In this document: piece by piece, positions 10,132-19,874 of the stretch
Layout: each line of letters starts with the position of its first letter
Numbering within the stretch: position 1 is the first letter of the stretch
Made by a program: the position numbers and the translations under genes
DNA from: Alphaproteobacteria bacterium
GTDB taxonomy: Bacteria; Pseudomonadota; Alphaproteobacteria; Micropepsales; Micropepsaceae
DNA: 45,251 nt
Reading direction: 5' to 3'
Assembly: GCA_947474645.1 (NCBI GenBank)
Contig: CANJJD010000020.1
Location: 1 to 45,251, forward strand
The notes under the pieces: generated by a model
Seen by the model: the letters and a program-made list of their open reading frames with translations, nothing else
Told to the model about the DNA's origin: nothing
Database searches by the model: none

Positions 10132-10148
10132 AGCAAGAGAACAAATTA

Positions 10149-11066
10149 ATGATCGACATTTTGCAATTGGTTCCCCTTCGTCCCGAAGTCCAGAAAGAGC
10201 TGGAGGCGCGTTACAAGCTTCACGGCAAGGCGGACTTCGACAAGGTCGCCGGCATCGTCCGCGGCTGCGTCACCAACGGCCATTCCGGTCCGCCGACCGA
10301 CATGATCGACCGCATGCCCAAGCTGGAGATCATCGCCTCGGCCAGTGTCGGCTATGACGGCATCCCGGTGGAATATGCCCGCACCAAGGGCATTCCGGTC
10401 TGCAACACCCCCGATGTGCTGAATGACGATGTCGCCGATCTCGCCATCGCGCTGATGATCATGACCGCGCGCAAGCTGGTGGTGACCGACCGCTATGTGC
10501 GCAGCGGACGCTGGGCCAAGGAAGGCGAGCATCCCCTGGCCAACCGCGCCAGCGGCAAGCGGGTCGGCATCCTGGGCATGGGCCGCATCGGCAAGGAAAT
10601 CGGCAAGCGCGCCACGGCGATGAACAACAGTGTGGCCTATCACAGCCGCAAGCCCGTGGCGGATGTGCCCTACAAGCATTATCCCGACCTGGTGGAACTG
10701 GCGAAGAACAGCGACTTCCTGGTCATCATTATTCCTTCCACGCCCCAGACCAACAAGATCGTCAACAAGGCGGTGATGGAGGCGCTGGGTCCCACCGGTA
10801 TCCTGGTCAATGTCGCGCGCGGCGCGGTGGTGGACGAGGATGCGCTGGTCGAAGCGCTGGTGTCCGGCAAGCTGGGCGGCGCGGGCCTGGACGTGTTCGT
10901 CGATGAACCGAAAGTGCCGGAAGTTTTGTTCGGCATGGACAATGTGGTGCTGCAGCCGCATGTCGGCAGCGGCACGCATGAGACGCGCCGCGCCATGAGT
11001 CAGTTGGTGCTGGACAATCTGGACGCCAAGTTCGCCGGCAAGCCGCTGCTCACCGAAATCAAGTAG
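10149..11066 (+). CDS. D-isomer-specific 2-hydroxyacid dehydrogenase (glyoxylate/hydroxypyruvate reductase type)
   Basis: A 305-residue cytoplasmic oxidoreductase that should interconvert a 2-keto acid and a D-2-hydroxy acid. The nucleotide-binding loop is GILGMGRIGKEIGKRA at about residue 139. The strand that sets cofactor choice ends HSRKP, and an arginine there usually means NADPH. The catalytic triad of the family is visible as R in NVARGAVVDEDAL, E in FVDEPKVP and H in QPHVGSGTHE. This pattern fits the GhrA/GhrB-like reductases of glyoxylate and hydroxypyruvate. It follows the SRPBCC gene by 17 bases. Lying near galactonate and mannonate-type genes, it may handle a sugar-acid breakdown product, which is inference. 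Confidence 0.88.
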   Translation: MIDILQLVPLRPEVQKELEARYKLHGKADFDKVAGIVRGCVTNGHSGPPTDMIDRMPKLEIIASASVGYDGIPVEYARTKGIPVCNTPDVLNDDVADLAIALMIMTARKLVVTDRYVRSGRWAKEGEHPLANRASGKRVGILGMGRIGKEIGKRATAMNNSVAYHSRKPVADVPYKHYPDLVELAKNSDFLVIIIPSTPQTNKIVNKAVMEALGPTGILVNVARGAVVDEDALVEALVSGKLGGAGLDVFVDEPKVPEVLFGMDNVVLQPHVGSGTHETRRAMSQLVLDNLDAKFAGKPLLTEIK

Positions 11067-11081
11067 CCCCCTCCGGACTTC

Positions 11082-11147
11082 GCTGGCCGAGGGCCAGCTA
11101 CGGCCACCTCCCCCTATGCGAGCGCGCTGACGCGCGCGCGGGGAGGG
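11082..11147. repeat. Paired palindromes between convergent genes (REP-like)
   Basis: A perfect hairpin GCTGGCC-GAG-GGCCAGC (11082-11098) is followed by a second, longer palindrome bounded by CCTCCCCC (11107-11114) and GGGGAGGG (11140-11147) with a GC-alternating centre. The pair fills the gap between two convergent genes and could end transcription from both sides. A similar two-palindrome unit with CCTTCCCC/GGGGAAGG arms occurs at 22162-22239, which suggests a dispersed family. Confidence 0.55.
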
Positions 11148-11867
11148 TCACCGCACCAGCGCGGTCACGGCATACAGAAACCCCGCGCCCGCCAGGGTGG
11201 CGAAGGTCGTGACGGGGCGCGGATGGGCGCGGTGGCTTTCGGGCAGAAGGCCGGATGCGCCGATATGCAGGAAGAAGCCGCAGAACAGCGCCAGCAGCAG
11301 CGCCAGCATTCCCGCATCCGCTACGACCAGCAGGCTGAGCCCCGCGCCCACCACCGGCGCCGTGGCATCCACCGCCAGCCAGCGCAGGGCGAAGGCTCTG
11401 GAGCCGCCGTTGCGGGTCACCACATTCACGGTATTGAGCCCATCGGCGAAATCATGCGCCAGCACAGCGGCAGCCACGATCAGGCCCATCGCATGGCTGG
11501 CCTGGAAGGCGATGCCCATCGCAAAACCGTCCAGCAGGCTATGGGCGGAAAAACTCGCCGCCCCAACCATGCCGCGCGCCGGATTGACCTGGCCGCCACA
11601 GTCATGGCGCGCCACCAGCCGGTCCAGCACGGTGTAGAGAAAAAAGCCGATCGCCGCCACGGCCAGCAGGATGCGCGGCTCATAGATTCCCTTGCCCGCC
11701 TCCAGCGCCTCGGGCGCCAGGTCAAAGAAGGCCACGCCGATCACCGCGCCGGCGGAAAAGCCCATCACCAGCGCCAGCTTGCCGGCGAGCTTCAAGGCCA
11801 GCAGGCCGCCAGCCATGGTCGCCGCACAGGCGCCGAGTGCAATCAGCATCACGATTAGAGCAGTCAT
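11148..11867 (-). CDS. ZIP-family divalent metal transporter
   Basis: A 239-residue inner-membrane protein with about eight hydrophobic segments. The conserved metal-path helices are visible: AASFSAHSLLDGFAMG (about residue 105, H and D) and VLAHDFADGLNTV (about residue 138, H and D). These match helices IV and V of ZIP transporters, which import zinc, iron or manganese. A histidine/cysteine segment ARHDCGG lies in the cytoplasmic loop before helix IV. No transporter partner is needed. The gene ends just past the paired palindromes at 11147 and begins nine bases after the end of the transglutaminase operon on the same strand, so it may be its last member. The preferred metal cannot be told. 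Confidence 0.85.
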   Translation of the reverse strand: MTALIVMLIALGACAATMAGGLLALKLAGKLALVMGFSAGAVIGVAFFDLAPEALEAGKGIYEPRILLAVAAIGFFLYTVLDRLVARHDCGGQVNPARGMVGAASFSAHSLLDGFAMGIAFQASHAMGLIVAAAVLAHDFADGLNTVNVVTRNGGSRAFALRWLAVDATAPVVGAGLSLLVVADAGMLALLLALFCGFFLHIGASGLLPESHRAHPRPVTTFATLAGAGFLYAVTALVR

Positions 11868-11876
11868 CGGCCCTGC

Positions 11877-12800
11877 TTATCGCGGCGAGGTGGCCGGAGC
11901 AATGTGGGGCAGTTCGGGGGTGCCGGGGTCCACCGGGATCACGTCCACGCCCACTTCCACCACATGGTCATGGCCGCCCAGGATGATGCCCGCCACCGGC
12001 GCGACATCGCCATAATCGCGGCCCCAGGACGAGGTCACATGGCTTTCGCCCACCAGGATATTGTTGGTGGGATCCAGGTCCACCCAGCCGAACGGCGGCG
12101 CCCAGACCGAAAACCAGGCATGGCTGGCATCGGCGCCGAGCAGGCGCGGCTTGCCCGGCGGCGGCTGGGTGAGCAGATAGCCGGAGACATAGCGCGCCGG
12201 CAGGCCGACGGCGCGCATCGCGGCGATGCCGACATGGGCGAGATCCTGGCAGACGCCGGCACGCAGTTCGAACACCCGGTCCACCGGCGTGGACACATCA
12301 GTGACGGTGGTGTCGTAGCGGAAATCCTTGTGGATGCGGTGCATCAGCTCAACGGCGCCCGCCAGGATGGGCCGGTGCGGCGGAAAACTCACCGCGCCAT
12401 AAGAAGCGATGTCGCTTTCGAACTGGGTCATGGGAGAATCGAACAGGTACTGGACCGCGTCGCGTTCTTCATCGTTCTGCGGATTTTCCAGCATGGCGCG
12501 CACATCTTCCCATGGCACGCTGTCGCGCGAGGCGCGCGCCGGCGCGGGCTGCACGGTAACGCGGCTTTCCGCCAGCACTTCCAGATGGGTGTGCGGCCGG
12601 TCGATGGAAAAAAGTTCGGTAGGGTTCTGAAAATAATCTTCCCGCGCCACCCGGCTGGCCGGCTCCAGGCTCAGGGTAACGCTGCTGTCATGCACCGCCT
12701 GCAGCGGCGTGGCGCGCGGGCGCAAATGCGCCAGGTGCCAGGAATGGGAAACATCTTGCAGGTAGCGGTAGGTGGTGCGGTGGCGCACGAAATATTCCAT
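11877..12800 (-). CDS. Transglutaminase-like protein (bacterial N-terminal region plus core)
   Basis: A 307-residue protein. Residues about 1-90 form the bacterial transglutaminase-like N-terminal region, starting RHRTTYRYLQDVSHSWHLAHLRPR. The core follows, with the catalytic cysteine in LRAGVCQDLAHVGI, histidine in ASHAWFSVW and aspartate in GWVDLDPTNN, all intact. Members of this family are cysteine proteases or amidases as often as true transglutaminases. The start codon overlaps the stop of the ATP-grasp gene by one base (TGATG), so the two are translationally coupled. With the ATP-grasp/alpha-E protein and the second transglutaminase it forms the conserved gene set that Iyer and colleagues predicted to make or trim peptide-like products. 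Its substrate is unknown. Confidence 0.85.
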   Translation of the reverse strand: MEYFVRHRTTYRYLQDVSHSWHLAHLRPRATPLQAVHDSSVTLSLEPASRVAREDYFQNPTELFSIDRPHTHLEVLAESRVTVQPAPARASRDSVPWEDVRAMLENPQNDEERDAVQYLFDSPMTQFESDIASYGAVSFPPHRPILAGAVELMHRIHKDFRYDTTVTDVSTPVDRVFELRAGVCQDLAHVGIAAMRAVGLPARYVSGYLLTQPPPGKPRLLGADASHAWFSVWAPPFGWVDLDPTNNILVGESHVTSSWGRDYGDVAPVAGIILGGHDHVVEVGVDVIPVDPGTPELPHIAPATSPR

Positions 12801-15013
12801 CACGCCTCCACGAACGGGCTGGAGCCGATGCGGCTTCGGGTGGCGTGCTGGAAATAGGCGTCGGCGATGGCGTCGGATAATTCGCCCGCGCTGAAGATGA
12901 TATTGTCGGTCAATTCGATCAGGCCGGGGCGCGCGCCCAGTTCGCAAAAGGCCAGCCGTGCCGGATTGGCGTTGGCGGCGGCGCCGCGCATTTCCTGGGC
13001 GATGGTGCGCGGCACGTCGCTGCGCTGGGCCAGCGTGATGCGCGGCAGTTCGCGCAGATGGTTCTCGATAGCGGCGAGCTGGAAAGCGCAGGACCGGGGA
13101 TTGTTCTCGTCCAGCAACAGCAGGTCCACAAAGGGCACAAGCTGGAATACGTTGAGATAGCGCGAGCGGTAGGTCATGGCGCTGTCGGCGATTTCCAGCA
13201 CGATGCGCATATGCTCGGTCTCCAGCGCATCGGCGTCCGCCACGGTCTGGCGCACCAGCCAGGCCAGGTGCTGGCCCCGTTCCAGCCGCCGTCCCAATTC
13301 CATGAACGCCCAGTTGGGACCGCGGGTCATGTTTTCCGCCGACAGGCCTGACAGAGCGGCAGCGCGGCGCACCAGCGCGTCGAGATAAAAGCGCGCGCCC
13401 GCCGCCTCGAACGGCGCATCCGCCGGCGGTAAGTCTTCGTTGACGGTCAAGGCGTTGATGGTGCGCCAGGTGTCCAAGGACAGGCGGTCGCGCACCGACC
13501 AGGCGGTTTGCTCCACCCGGCGGAGAAGCCTTTGCAGCCCTCTGGAGTTGCGCGGGCTGTAGATCAGCAGTTGCAGTTCCTCCAGTAATTCTTCGTCGCC
13601 GGCGATTTCCTCGATGGGGGAATCGCTGGCCTGGCTGAAGGGGATCAGCAGCTTGCGCGCCACGTCCAGCGCCGCCGCCGGCTCATCGCTGGCCCGCGCC
13701 GTCACCGCGCGCAGGATGCGCACAAAGCTTTCGGTGCGCTCGGCATAGCGGCCCAGCCAGAACAGATTGTCCATGGCGCGGCTGGGCGCGGATTCGCCGT
13801 GCCGCTTGATCTCCAGCGCGCGGCCGCCATTGGCCAGCAGGCTGAAATTGTCCACCGGGGTGGGCGAGATCACCCAGGCATCCTTGCTGGAAGCGCCCGA
13901 CTGCATGGAAAGGGCGCGCACCGTGTCGTCGGCGGCGACGCGGGTCAGACCGCCCGGCATCACCATCCAGCCGTTCGGCGTCCAGGCGGCGAAGACGCGC
14001 AAACTGACCGGCCTGGCGCCGAATATGCCCTGCTCGAACACCGGCGCCACCCCTAAGGGCGAGATCTCCTGCAGCACCATGGTTTCGCCGCGCTGCTTCA
14101 GCCGGGCGATGGCGCGCTCGCGCTCTTCGCCGCTCAGGTCCGCGCCCAGCCGGGCGCTGGAGTTGCGCGAGAATAGCGGGCGCGCATCGAAAGCGTCGCG
14201 CAGGATGCACTGGTCCATGCGCGCAATGGCTTCCTTGCGTCCCCAGTCGGTGCCGCACCAGATGGTGGAGATGTCGGGTATTTTCAGTTCTTCGCCCAGC
14301 AGGTGATGCGATATCGCGGGCAGATAGGCGTCCATGGCCGGGGATTCGATCACCCCGCCGCCCAGCGCATTGGCCAGCACCACGCCGCCGGCGCGCACCG
14401 CTTCCACCAGGCCCGGCACGCCCAGCGCGCTGTCGCCGCGCAATTCCAGGGGATCGCAGAAATCGGAGTCCACGCGGCGGAAGATGGCGGCGACTCGCTC
14501 CAAACCGGTGAGCGTCTTCAGGAACACTTCGCCATCGCGCACCGCCAGGTCATCGCCCTGCACCAGGGTCAGGCCCAGGTAATGGGCCAGATAGACATGC
14601 TCGAAATAGGTTTCGTTGTAGGGGCCCGGCGTCAGCAGCACCGCGCGGTCGCGGCGCGACACACCCAGCCCCAGGATGCTTTCCTTGTAGGCGTTGAAGA
14701 AGGCGGCCAGCCGTGCCACCCGCATCCCGCCGAAGCTTTCGGGAAAGGTCTGGGAAACCACCAGGCGATTTTCCAGGGCGTAACCCAAACCGCCGGGGGC
14801 GTCGGCGCGGGAAGCCATGACTTTCCAGGCGCCATCGGGTCCGCGCGCCAGGTCGGCGGAATAAAGATGCACATGCGCGCCGCCGGCCGGGGTGGAGCCG
14901 CACAGCGGGCGCAGGAATTGGGGATGGCCGGTGACCAGATGGCTCGGCAGCACGCCACTGGCCATCAGCTCCTGCGGGCCATACACGTCGCGCAGGATCA
15001 TGTCGGCCAGCAT
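12800..15013 (-). pseudogene. Circularly permuted ATP-grasp / alpha-E fusion, main part downstream of an amber codon
   Basis: This 737-residue frame holds most of a fused protein. Residues 1 to about 390 are the circularly permuted ATP-grasp (type 2), with LRDVYGPQEL, LTPGPYNETYFEHVYLA, and DISTIWCGTDWGRKEA. From about residue 415 (MDNLFWLGRYAERTES) to the end lies the all-helical alpha-E domain. ATP-grasp enzymes of this type are predicted peptide or amide ligases. The frame is open without a break to the segment at 15020-15313 except for one TAG at 15022-15020, exactly where relatives have a glutamine (I-Q-R-A). Together the parts make about 837 residues, the usual family length. ATG 15013 is therefore an artefact of the stop, not a natural start. 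It overlaps the downstream transglutaminase by one base. Confidence 0.8.
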
Positions 15014-15019
15014 GGCGCG

Positions 15020-15313
15020 CTATATCACCGCCGCCTCGATCGCCTTCCAGTCGGCGGAGGACAGGATGAAGGGCACGATGTCGAGCTGCCAGGGCCGCGC
15101 CTGGCCGGCGCGATCGTCATAGACATTATAAGTGACGCCATTGTCCTGCACCGTGGCGCGGGCGGACGCCTGGCGGCGCTGATATTCCTCGGGCGAAAGC
15201 TGGGACAGGGTGCGGGCAAAGTCGCGCCAGTGCGGGCGGACCTGGCCATTGCCGTCGCGCAATTCGTCAAAGCGGGACGCCGGCGGACTTATGCGTTCTG
15301 CAACTTCCGACAC
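15020..15313 (-). pseudogene. N-terminal segment of the ATP-grasp / alpha-E protein, ended by an in-frame TAG
   Basis: A 97-residue frame starting at GTG 15313 with AGGA six bases ahead. It reads RFDELRDGNGQVRPHWRDFA, LSPEEYQRRQA, NGVTYNVYDD and PWQLDIVPFILSSADWKAIE, which is the standard beginning of circularly permuted type 2 ATP-grasp proteins. After EAAVI the frame meets TAG and then continues RAMLADMILRDVYGP in the same frame. A single C-to-T change in a CAG glutamine codon explains it. TAG is an ordinary stop in this genome (dgoT, the metallopeptidase), so recoding is unlikely. Either the ligase is inactivated, or a suppressor reads through, or the base call is wrong. The gene lies 29 bases after the large transglutaminase gene in the same operon. 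Confidence 0.8.
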
Positions 15314-15342
15314 TTACGAATCCTGCTCCCCACCGCGTATTC

Positions 15343-18300
15343 TCACCGTCTCAGGTCGAGAGTATAGGGGAAATCGGGATTGGCTTCTTCATTCGCGGCC
15401 TGGAAGACCCCGCCGGTGAAGCCGAAGGGCTCGAAACGGGCCAGCCTGCGGCCCTCTGCCTCATTGGCGTTGACCGGGAAGATTTCGGAATTGCGCCCGC
15501 CGGCATGGGCGACGCGATAGGTGCAACCGCCCATGGAGCGGTGGCGCCAACTGTCCCAGATCTCGATGATCAGTGGCGCGTGCGCCGGGATGGTGGGATG
15601 CAGGCCATGCGGCGGCTGCCAGGCCTTGAAGCGCACACCCGCCACGGCTTCGCTCTGCGCCGTTGCGCGCAGCGGAAGGCTGCGGCCATTGACCAGCACA
15701 CGGTGACGGCCCGGGGTCAGGCCCTTGACCTTCACCTCCAACCGCTCGACCGAGGAATCCACATAGCGCGCGGTGCCGCCCGGCGTGCCTTCCTCGGCCA
15801 GTACGTTCCACGGCTCCAGCGCGTTGCGCAGTTCCAGCTCCACGCCGTCATACTGAACCTTGCCGACCAGCGGGAAACGGAAATCCCAATGCGGCCGGTA
15901 CCATTCCAGGTCGAAGGCAAAGCCGTGGTCATTCATGTCGGCGATGACATCGGCGAGATCCGCCCAGGCAAAATGCGGCAGCATGAAACGGTCATGCAGC
16001 CCGGTGCCCCAGCGCGCCAGATTGCTGCGATAGGGCTCGCGCCAGAAGCGCGCGATCAGGGCGCGCATCAGCAGCGATTGCGCCAGGCTCATCTCCGCAT
16101 GCGGCGGCATTTCAAAGCCGCGAAATTCCACCAGACCCAATCGGCCGGTGGGGCCATCGGGTGAATAGAGTTTGTCGATGCAGATTTCGCTGCGGTGGGT
16201 ATTGCCGGTGGAATCGGCCAAGAGGTTGCGGAACACCCGGTCCACCAGCCAGGGCGGAATATTGGCGGCGGCGCGGGACGGAATCTCGTTGAAGGCGATT
16301 TCCAGCTCGTAGAGCGAATCGTTGCGGGCTTCATCGATCCGCGGCGCCTGGCTGGTGGGGCCGATGAACATGCCCGAAAACAGGTAGGACAGGCTGGGAT
16401 GGTTCTGCCAATAGGCGATGATGCTTTTCAGCATGTCGGGGCGGCGCAGGAAGGGACTGTCGGGCGGGGTCTGTGCGCCGACCACGATATGATTGCCGCC
16501 GCCGGTGCCGGTGTGGCGGCCGTCGAGCTGGAATTTCTCCGCCGTCAGGCGCGAAGCGGTGGCTTCTTCGTATAGCGCCTTGGTGATGTCCACCTGCTCG
16601 CGCCAGTTCTTGGCGGGATGGATATTGACCTCGATCACGCCGGGATCAGGGGTCACCTTGATGACATTGATGCGCGGATCGAAAGGCGGCGGATAGCCTT
16701 CGATATGCACCGCGACGTTCAGCGCTTCGGCCGCATCCTCGATCGCCGTCAGCAGGGTGAAGTAATCACCCGCTGCCGGCAGCGGCGGCATGAACACGCA
16801 CAAACGGCCATCGCGCGGCTCCACCGTCATGGCGGTGCGCACCACCGCATCCTGGGCCAGGGCGACGGACTGTGCCGTTACGGCGCGGAACGGGGCCTGC
16901 AATTCATGGCCGTTGCTTTTGCCGTTGGTATAGCCCTGGCCCGTCTTTTCGGGCTCGTCCAGCGGCGGCAGCGGCGCGAAAGGGTCCGGCGGCGGCACAA
17001 AGCTGCGCGCTTGCGCCGGCACATGCGGAAGCGAGTTCAGCGGCAGGCGAAAACCGATAGAGCTGTCGCCCGGCATCAGGAACAGATGACCGCTGCGGGT
17101 GGTCCAATGCTCGCTCAGCCAGCGGGTCAGGCCCTTTTCCACCGGCAACACATAGCCGACAGCCTGGCTCAGGCCGCGTTCGAACACCCGCGCCAGGCGC
17201 GCGCGAAGCTCCGGATCGTCCAGCTTGGAATCGGATGGATCCACATTGGCGGCAAGCTGGCGCTCCTGCGCCAGGTGATGCCAGAAATCTTCGTAAGCCG
17301 GAATGACATAGGACGCTTCCAGCCCCAGCGTCTTTGCGACGGCGGCGATCAGCGCGCTGGCATCGGCAAGGGTGGACTTGTGATCCTTGTTTTCGGCCGC
17401 CACGCGCTCGGCGTTTTTCCAAAGCGGCGCGCCGTCGGTGCGCCAGTAAAGCCCGAAGGCCCAACGCGGCAGGGATTCGCCGGGATACCATTTGCCCTGG
17501 CCGTAATGCAGCAACCCGCCCGGCGCGAAACGATCGCGCAAGCGCCGGATCAGCTTGTCGGCCAAAGCCCGCTTGGTCGGTCCGACGGCGGCGATATGCC
17601 ATTCCGCGCCCGAGCGATCGTCGATGGAAACAAAAGTGGGCTCGCCGCCCATGGTCAGGCGCACGTCATGGTTCTTGAGCACCAGGTCCACGGCGTCGCC
17701 CAGCTTCTCGATCTCGTCCCATTGTTCGTCGGTATAGGGTTTGGTGACACGCGGCGGTTCCTTGATGCGCGTCACGCTCATGTCGAAGTCGAACAGCACT
17801 TCGGCCGGCTCGACCGCGCCGGAGATCGGCGCGGCCTGGGTCGGGCTGGCGGCGCAGGCCAGCGGGATATGGCCTTCGCCGGCGAAAAGTCCGGAGGTGG
17901 CGTCCAGTCCCACCCAGCCGGCGCCCGGCAGATAGACTTCGCACCAGGCATGCAGGTCGGTGAAATCCTTGTCGGTGCCCGAAGGTCCATCCAGCGCCTT
18001 CACATCGGCCTTGAGCTGGATCAGATACCCGCTGGTGAAGCGCGCCGCCAAACCCAGATGGCGCAGCAGGTTTACCAGCAGCCAGGCGCTGTCGCGGCAG
18101 GAGCCGGATCCCTTGCACAGCGTTTCTTCCGGCGTCTGGATGCCGGGCTCCATGCGGATCGTGTAACTGATGTCTTGTGCGATCTGCGCGTTGAGGTCGA
18201 AGACGAAGTTGGTGGTCTGCTCAGACTTGCGCGGTACGGCGTCGAGATAGCGCTTGAAGGCGGGACCAAAATCGGTGACCGCCAGATAAGGCTCCAGTTC

Positions 18301-18636
18301 GGCCTTCAGCTCGGGCGAATAGTGAAACGGAAATTTCTCCGCCTCGGGCTCCAGGAAGAAGTCGAAGGGATTGATAACCTCCATGTCCACGGTCAGGTCC
18401 ACGCTGACGGTGAAGTGATCAATCTTCTCAGGGAATACGATGCGCGCCAGCCAGTTGGACTGGGGATCCTGCTGCCAATTGATGTAATGTTCCGCCGGCT
18501 CGATCTTCAGCGAATAGGCCACGATCTTGGCGCGGCTGTGGGGCGCCGGACGCAGGCGTATAGTCTGGGCACCCAAGGTGATTTGCCGGTCGTACCGGTA
18601 GCGGGTGACGTGACGGAGGGCGGCCTGAATGCTCAT
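15343..18636 (-). CDS. Large transglutaminase-like protein with DUF2126 domain
   Basis: A 1097-residue protein, full length for its family. Residues 1-about 280 are a transglutaminase-like unit with catalytic C180 (GSGSCRDSA), H229 (TDLHAWCEV) and D245 (VGLDATSG). From about residue 310 the DUF2126 region runs to the end, with recognisable blocks such as VRLTMGGEPTFVSIDD, WYPGESLPRWAFG, GRHTGTGGGNHIVVG and LVEFRGFEMPPHAEMS. The NHPSLSYLFSG stretch is also typical. It is the first gene of the operon that continues with the ATP-grasp/alpha-E gene and the smaller transglutaminase. The set is widespread in proteobacteria and actinobacteria but has no proven product. A start at ATG 18636 has AGGGA ahead. 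The divergent metallopeptidase often accompanies this set. Confidence 0.9.
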   Translation of the reverse strand: MSIQAALRHVTRYRYDRQITLGAQTIRLRPAPHSRAKIVAYSLKIEPAEHYINWQQDPQSNWLARIVFPEKIDHFTVSVDLTVDMEVINPFDFFLEPEAEKFPFHYSPELKAELEPYLAVTDFGPAFKRYLDAVPRKSEQTTNFVFDLNAQIAQDISYTIRMEPGIQTPEETLCKGSGSCRDSAWLLVNLLRHLGLAARFTSGYLIQLKADVKALDGPSGTDKDFTDLHAWCEVYLPGAGWVGLDATSGLFAGEGHIPLACAASPTQAAPISGAVEPAEVLFDFDMSVTRIKEPPRVTKPYTDEQWDEIEKLGDAVDLVLKNHDVRLTMGGEPTFVSIDDRSGAEWHIAAVGPTKRALADKLIRRLRDRFAPGGLLHYGQGKWYPGESLPRWAFGLYWRTDGAPLWKNAERVAAENKDHKSTLADASALIAAVAKTLGLEASYVIPAYEDFWHHLAQERQLAANVDPSDSKLDDPELRARLARVFERGLSQAVGYVLPVEKGLTRWLSEHWTTRSGHLFLMPGDSSIGFRLPLNSLPHVPAQARSFVPPPDPFAPLPPLDEPEKTGQGYTNGKSNGHELQAPFRAVTAQSVALAQDAVVRTAMTVEPRDGRLCVFMPPLPAAGDYFTLLTAIEDAAEALNVAVHIEGYPPPFDPRINVIKVTPDPGVIEVNIHPAKNWREQVDITKALYEEATASRLTAEKFQLDGRHTGTGGGNHIVVGAQTPPDSPFLRRPDMLKSIIAYWQNHPSLSYLFSGMFIGPTSQAPRIDEARNDSLYELEIAFNEIPSRAAANIPPWLVDRVFRNLLADSTGNTHRSEICIDKLYSPDGPTGRLGLVEFRGFEMPPHAEMSLAQSLLMRALIARFWREPYRSNLARWGTGLHDRFMLPHFAWADLADVIADMNDHGFAFDLEWYRPHWDFRFPLVGKVQYDGVELELRNALEPWNVLAEEGTPGGTARYVDSSVERLEVKVKGLTPGRHRVLVNGRSLPLRATAQSEAVAGVRFKAWQPPHGLHPTIPAHAPLIIEIWDSWRHRSMGGCTYRVAHAGGRNSEIFPVNANEAEGRRLARFEPFGFTGGVFQAANEEANPDFPYTLDLRR

Positions 18637-18715
18637 CGGATATCCCTGGAAAAATAACTATGCCGCAACTGCGAAGGTGCGGCTACAAGCCGCCACGCCG
18701 CAGCCCGAAAACCTC

Positions 18716-18740
18716 GGAACGTCGTTAAAAAGCGGGCGTT
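18716..18740 (+). promoter_or_regulatory. EcfG-type (general stress sigma) promoter of the metallopeptidase
   Basis: GGAAC at 18716-18720, 16 bases, then CGTT at 18737-18740: an exact match to the alphaproteobacterial EcfG/SigT promoter GGAAC-N16-17-CGTT. The downstream ATG is at 18766, leaving a leader of under 20 bases. Nothing similar points towards the divergent transglutaminase operon. Confidence 0.75.
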
Positions 18741-18765
18741 TACGCTTTTCTCGCGGAAATTCCTT

Positions 18766-19874
18766 ATGAAGCTGTTTAGTTGCCAGGGCTGTGGCCAGCT
18801 CCTGTATTTCGAGAATGTCCGCTGCGAAAATTGCGGCCGGGCCTTGGGCTATCTCACTGATATTGCAGAGATTTCTGCGATAGAGCCCATGAAAGACGGG
18901 GGCTGGACCATGCTGGCGGACCCGGGAAAAGCCTACAAATTCTGCCTGAACTACGACGCCGGCATGTGCAATTGGATGGTTCCGGCCGACGACCCGACCG
19001 GCTATTGCGCCGCCTGCCGCCACAACCGGGTGGTCCCCGACCTGTCGGTCCCCGGCAATGACGTGCTCTGGCGCAAGATCGAGAACGCCAAGCACCGGCT
19101 GTTTTATTCCCTGCTGCGGCTGGGGCTGCCGCTTCAGACTCGCGCCGAAGATCCCGAACATGGCCTGGCCTTCGATTTCCTGGCCGACGCGCCCGAAAGC
19201 CATGCCGCCGAAGTGATGACCGGCCATGACAATGGGCTGATCACCCTGGCGCTGAAGGAAGCCGATGACGTCACGCGCGAACGCGTGCGCAGCGAGATGG
19301 GCGAACCTTACCGCACCTTGCTGGGGCATTTCCGCCATGAGACCGGTCACTATTTCTGGGACCGGCTGGTGGCGACCAACGAAGGCTTGCTGAATGCGTT
19401 CCGCAGCCTGTTCGGCGATGACCGCCAGGATTACGACCAGGCGCTGCAGAAGCACTATGGCGAAGGCCCGCCGCAAGGCTGGCAGGACAGTTTCATATCC
19501 ATGTATGCGACCACCCATCCCTGGGAGGATTTCGCCGAGACCTGGGCGCATTACCTGCATATCGTGGATACGCTGGAAACGGCGGGCGCCTTCGGCATGA
19601 AGGTCAAGCCGCGCGCGGCGCGCGGCCATATCGCCGCCGCGATTGATTTCGATCCCTACAAGACGCGGCGCTGGGATGTGCTGATCGACGCCTGGCTGCC
19701 GATCGAGTTCGCCACCAACAGCATGAACCGCAGCATGGGGCTGACCGATCTTTATCCCTTTGTGCTGTCGCCCAAGGCAATCGAGAAGCTGGCCTTTGTC
19801 CACGCCATGACCCACCGCAAGGAAGATGTGGTCAAGAAAGCCGTGGACTCTCTGATGATCGCGTCCGTCGCGCG

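Follow-up and report, generated by a model that had tools for sequence, protein, structure and literature searches.

A lone in-frame TAG in an otherwise intact ATP-grasp/Alpha-E ligase gene is probably a fresh nonsense allele

A single stop codon inside an otherwise intact gene may mark a gene that was lost a short time ago, an enzyme that is still made in some way, or an error of the assembly. This question is raised by an ATP-grasp/Alpha-E ligase gene in the window, by which we mean the whole stretch of 45,251 nucleotides analysed. The minus strand from 15313 to 12800 forms a single frame of 837 codons plus TGA, the sole break in which is a TAG at codon 98 (15022–15020). The frame starts with GTG at 15313, runs for 97 codons to the TAG, and continues for 739 codons to the TGA at 12802–12800. 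The initial annotation had described it as complete except for this TAG, and the observation of a lone in-frame TAG in an otherwise intact ligase gene was confirmed. The features of the locus are as follows:

15020–15022, minus strand: in-frame TAG, codon 98 of the ATP-grasp/Alpha-E gene, where all 115 related contexts have a Gln codon
15023–15313, minus strand: first 97 codons with the GTG start, encoding an N-terminal segment of the circularly permuted ATP-grasp domain that is conserved and is now separated from the rest by the stop (the alignment to PDB 3n6x begins at query residue 14 and chain residue 9)
12800–15013, minus strand: open frame after the TAG, from an ATG 6 bases downstream (737 aa, CP_ATPgrasp_2 and Alpha-E)
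12798–12802, minus strand: TGATG overlap in the sequence between the ATP-grasp/Alpha-E stop and the ATG of the next gene, a possible site of translational coupling
11877–12800, minus strand: downstream transglutaminase-like gene, 307 aa, open (Pfam match to a longer form of the ORF; unbroken in nine sister loci, of which some are partial; constrained)
15343–18636, minus strand: upstream transglutaminase-like and DUF2126 (putative amidoligase) gene, 1097 aa, open

The part behind the stop carried the Pfam domains of the CP_ATPgrasp/Alpha-E family in the right order and above the curated cut-offs: PF14403 at 396.6 bits (cut-off 32), PF04174 at 259.1 bits (23.1), and PF04168 at 217.3 bits (20.8). 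The domains named in these matches are CP_ATPgrasp_2, CP_ATPgrasp_1, and Alpha-E. The first 97 residues alone matched no Pfam family at E 0.001, and an NCBIfam scan of four sequences gave nothing at the same threshold. The window thus shares its domain order and its neighbours (transglutaminase-like, DUF2126) with the CP_ATPgrasp/Alpha-E proteins (PF14403/PF04174, PF04168) that are found beside transglutaminase-like genes. These relatives have 837 unbroken residues, whereas the window copy is interrupted by the TAG at codon 98, an invariant Gln position.

We searched 147 genomes, our own included, with the read-through protein; the collections hold one genome per species, and at least 77 of the genomes gave some match at E 0.001. 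Among the matches listed, the closest genomes were G001, G037, G062, and G057, which are 94% identical and have 837-residue open frames with no stop, in keeping with the earlier claim that about 837 residues is the family length. Glutamine had been expected at the TAG site. A Gln codon was indeed found at position 98 in 115 of 115 distinct related contexts (CAG in 103, CAA in 12; own copy excluded, some paralogues included). The lesion is therefore absent from the relatives, as in a pseudogene arising by nonsense mutation; programmed readthrough calls for a conserved stop, and a stop was present in 0 of the 115 contexts. Among the matches listed, no internal stop was found in the orthologues of at least 37% identity that matched in one long piece, and the comparison for a true gene split at the TAG site revealed no relative divided at codon 98.

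Broken orthologues were seen elsewhere in the gene. That of G067 (L152:7154-9633; also L037) has a frameshift at codon 86/87, likewise in the N-terminal part, which reflects either an erroneous indel or a second break that arose independently. The G074 orthologue (L200) consists of three matching pieces with runs of N at about 479-714 and 1545-1788, corresponding to scaffold gaps or masked sequence, while the orthologues of G008 and G012 are split over contigs. A TGA in G123 was rejected as an internal break, since it lies about eight residues from the alignment end and is a natural gene end. The stops of L038 and L062, located at the alignment end, were rejected in the same way.

A detail missing from the initial annotation is that two adjacent bases differ at codons 97 and 98: the nearest sisters read ATC CAG, and the window reads ATA TAG. 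All three sisters share ATC at 42 codons of this gene and the DUF2126 gene together; the window keeps ATC at 40 of these and has GTC at one and ATA at the one that precedes the TAG. The two adjacent changes may be linked. Across codon junctions of the same two genes, adjacent double changes numbered 2, 4, and 6 in the three sisters, and 3 in the window lineage, as against 0.65 expected there if changes were independent.

These differences bear on a sequencing, consensus, or strain-mixing error, by which the gene would be intact and the two bases would be miscalled or drawn from a minor read set. Clustered read errors would fit two adjacent differences. The assembly is in 54 contigs, and no tRNA-Trp was present among the tRNAs found. 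PMC11017572 describes internal-stop pseudogenes as common in bacterial genomes and many of them as assembly artefacts, more at low coverage. Like such pseudogenes, the gene has an internal stop while its coding frame is normal in other respects, and we see no difference in kind. On the other side, the double change requires no error, because adjacent double changes also occur in all three sisters. We regard an error of the assembly or consensus as a possible, clearly less probable explanation, ranking next after a fresh nonsense allele.

To date the stop, we compared substitution rates between the window and the sisters. For the whole gene, dN/dS was 0.095-0.112 when the window was compared with three sisters and 0.081-0.099 when the sisters were compared with one another. 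Codons 99-837 gave 0.090-0.100 and 0.078-0.096, respectively. For codons 1-97, the values were 0.130-0.227 and 0.095-0.136, based on few changes. Nonsynonymous change in the gene was slightly higher on the window lineage (41.2 vs 31.8-35.0 in the sisters); this excess would fit some decay, yet it is within noise. Relaxed constraint after the lesion, which would be expected of a pseudogene, was not observed, the N/S ratio of the branch being close to the sister values; the lesion is either too recent for relaxation to show or not inactivating. These branch counts assume a star tree, which is crude given the larger divergence of the DUF2126 gene in G062.

A simple mixture estimate, run on the complete gene and on codons 99-837 under three transition biases, put the unconstrained share of the window branch at 3-5%, with a 95% upper limit of 8-12%. 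For codons 99-837 taken separately, the share was 3-4% (upper limit 8-11%): a wholly neutral branch would have produced 200-254 nonsynonymous changes in this segment, and 34 were estimated. Codons 1-97 alone gave a share of 15-20% with an upper limit of 47-61%. Given the near-normal constraint after the stop, a neutral phase could account for no more than about 8-12% of the window branch. The rates fit the earlier proposal that the inactivation is very recent. By themselves they cannot choose between a stop that is recent on the scale of the branch, one that is harmless, and one that is not real. An assembly error would leave constraint just as normal, as would a protein that is still made, and the near-normal constraint counts in favor of an error as well.

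We scanned 757,069 bases including the window, about 29% of the genome, for stops in coding frames; frameshifts were outside the scan. Of the 1,967 stops that have 60 or more open codons to either side, the codon-98 TAG had the highest minimum coding score (0.343; next 0.334, 0.333, and 0.332), a rank that is not blind, as the background model and the thresholds were set with this TAG as the positive control. The lead is narrow without the frame filter, which demands that the frame outscore the other five, and clearer among the 29 stops that pass it. The next five unfiltered stops, three of them TAG, all failed the filter, and the ten pieces flanking them gave no Pfam match, as expected of shadow frames.

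The other 28 stops passing the filter comprised 12 TAG, 8 TGA, and 8 TAA. In 23 of them, a Met is among the next 18 residues, which is the pattern of a gene boundary. We checked the remaining five: in four, the Pfam families before and after the stop differ, and one, a TAG at L164:9341, has none on either side. In L164:8771-9754, this TAG divides a single frame into open stretches of 190 and 137 codons whose composition is coding-like, and no Met occurs in the next 18 residues; it may be a boundary between genes, a further interruption, or part of a shadow frame. The genome is thus not full of such stops, and the codon-98 TAG is the clearest interruption of continuous coding in the 757 kb, which speaks against an error. 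The same scan showed no class of TAG-interrupted genes.

This result is also relevant to the idea that the genome reads TAG as glutamine, in favor of which the TAG sits at an invariant Gln codon. Recoding is marked by TAG unused as terminator, loss of release factor 1, and a cognate tRNA. Here, release factor 1 is present (481.6 bits, cut-off 423.25), and TAG serves as an ordinary terminator, ending 105 of 392 long open frames in the 757,069 bases, next to 212 ended by TGA and 75 by TAA. The check for an amber suppressor tRNA proposed in the initial annotation was run, and no CTA anticodon occurred among the 41 tRNAs found in what is an incomplete set. Recoding was rejected on these grounds, and we consider its probability negligible.

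The incompleteness of the tRNA set follows from the missing tRNA-Trp. None was found among the 41 tRNAs despite a stated completeness of 99.6%; an anticodon-arm pattern gave weak matches only, and a looser tRNA search added three further weak hits below the family cut-off. The absence of tRNA-Trp indicates that the assembly is incomplete. The 16S rRNA was not found in the genome either, in a search that also missed it in 5 of 14 control genomes, Caulobacter included.

Readthrough by a suppressor tRNA or a leaky stop, yielding enough full-length protein, was considered next to recoding. A suppressor could be absent from the incomplete assembly, and the RNA is predicted to form a stable structure starting at the stop: the 120 bases around it gave z = -2.63, with 3 of 200 shuffles as good. 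The fold energy was -59.6 kcal/mol in the window as compared with -53.9, -55.5, -61.0, and -54.2 kcal/mol in four close sisters, making it more stable than in three of the four, and -52.2 kcal/mol in G016 (sisters and G016 unshuffled). However, the stem beginning at codon 98 appeared in the predicted structures of four of the five relatives as well, and sisters with a Gln codon at this site fold similarly (-53.9 to -61.0 kcal/mol). The fold is not tied to the stop and was rejected as a readthrough signal. Together with the 41 tRNAs lacking a CTA anticodon, these results leave suppression unsupported, and readthrough is a remote prospect.

To assess the effect on the protein, we aligned 60 of 75 usable sequences, the window included with Q98 assumed. 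The alignment has 70 invariant columns, seven of which precede the first possible restart Met at codon 101 (G59, T61, N63, D78, P81, Q98, and R99); Q98 and R99 are thus both invariant, the former by assumption in the window row. An AlphaFold2 model of the read-through protein had a mean pLDDT of 84.3 and a pTM of 0.81. Residue 98 lies within a predicted helix spanning residues 86-110 (block pLDDT 95-97). The best Foldseek match was PDB 3n6x, a putative glutathionylspermidine synthase (TM 0.85, normalized by target length; in phmmer, query residues 14-482 aligned at E 1.4e-71), followed by glutathione synthetases. The 3n6x chain has 474 residues, lacks an Alpha-E part, and is unbroken across the site. 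Since residue 98 falls in mid-helix and 3n6x aligns from query residue 14, the lost N-terminal part belongs to the catalytic fold. We are less certain of its structural role than of its conservation, because part of it was modelled poorly (residues 64-71 below 50 pLDDT).

An in-frame ATG six bases past the TAG and the near-normal constraint on codons 99-837 would fit a working enzyme that is split or restarted, in which two chains assemble or the 737-residue form still functions. Several results speak against this. The stop is within the predicted helix and not at a domain boundary, and the restart product would be devoid of 7 of the 70 invariant positions. The restart Met is not conserved, the relatives having Val, Ile, His, Gln, and others. 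No relative among the matches listed is split at codon 98; G067 is frameshifted at 86/87 and G074 is broken by N. A split or restarted enzyme is accordingly improbable, and its specific form as a coupled two-chain ligase, with pieces of 97 and 737 residues active by co-folding, even more so. The 737-residue product is probably inactive, as judged from the conserved positions; loss of function is inferred from the seven missing invariant residues and the cut inside the predicted helix.

With the above results in hand, we favor a fresh nonsense allele of a dispensable operon as the probable explanation. The very recent inactivation put forward in the initial annotation is the best supported reading, with a stop in the window, intact relatives at 94% identity, and near-normal constraint. 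Codon 98 would have become TAG either along this lineage or within the population that supplied the assembled genome. The chain would then end at residue 97, partway through a helix of the catalytic domain. A fraction of the ribosomes may reinitiate at the ATG that follows six bases later, giving a protein without the conserved N-terminal elements. The stop might also lower the expression of the coupled downstream transglutaminase, and the loss is probably tolerated.

Tolerance was evaluated in a genus sample of 40 genomes at least 95% complete, our own included. The fused gene occurred at 58% identity or more in 14 of the 40; 16 had no match at E 0.001, and 10 had distant or fragmentary matches only. 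The genome also contains a second set of separate CP_ATPgrasp, Alpha-E, and transglutaminase genes on C10 (L184:6853-10315), close to a contig end, unlike the fused ATP-grasp/Alpha-E gene of the window. From this uneven distribution across the genus, and from the second set carried by the same genome, we infer that loss of the fused gene would be unremarkable.

The locus resembles the Anbu operon, which, in PMC6376114, consists of ATP-grasp, alphaE, transglutaminase-like, and Anbu genes. The likeness to what is described there rests on the three shared enzyme types (ATP-grasp, alphaE, and transglutaminase-like). In contrast to that description, the window fuses ATP-grasp with Alpha-E, and one of its neighbors is a transglutaminase-DUF2126 fusion. 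The same paper reports that the ATP-grasp protein of the Yersinia bercovieri Anbu operon released phosphate from ATP. Another ATP-grasp/transglutaminase operon is described in PMC12239564. If the stop is real, the window captures the first step in losing a gene that is patchy in its genus (14/40), before clear further decay. If it is an error, this is one more case in which a lone internal stop in an assembly should not count as biology without reads. On either reading, knowledge of these enzymes is unchanged, and fresh gene loss is ordinary.

The flanking transglutaminase genes, described earlier as intact, both have open frames here and at the sister loci that were compared (nine for the downstream gene, some partial). 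The downstream overlap is kept as well: TGATG is present at 12802-12798, so translational coupling is possible. A stop early in the ATP-grasp/Alpha-E gene could reduce expression of the coupled transglutaminase (11877-12800), for which dN/dS showed no clear relaxation so far. A promoter and terminator scan of 11000-19000 gave 0 promoter-like sites (1.2 expected) and 6 terminator-like sites (6.1 expected). An ORF at 10146 may be a shadow frame.
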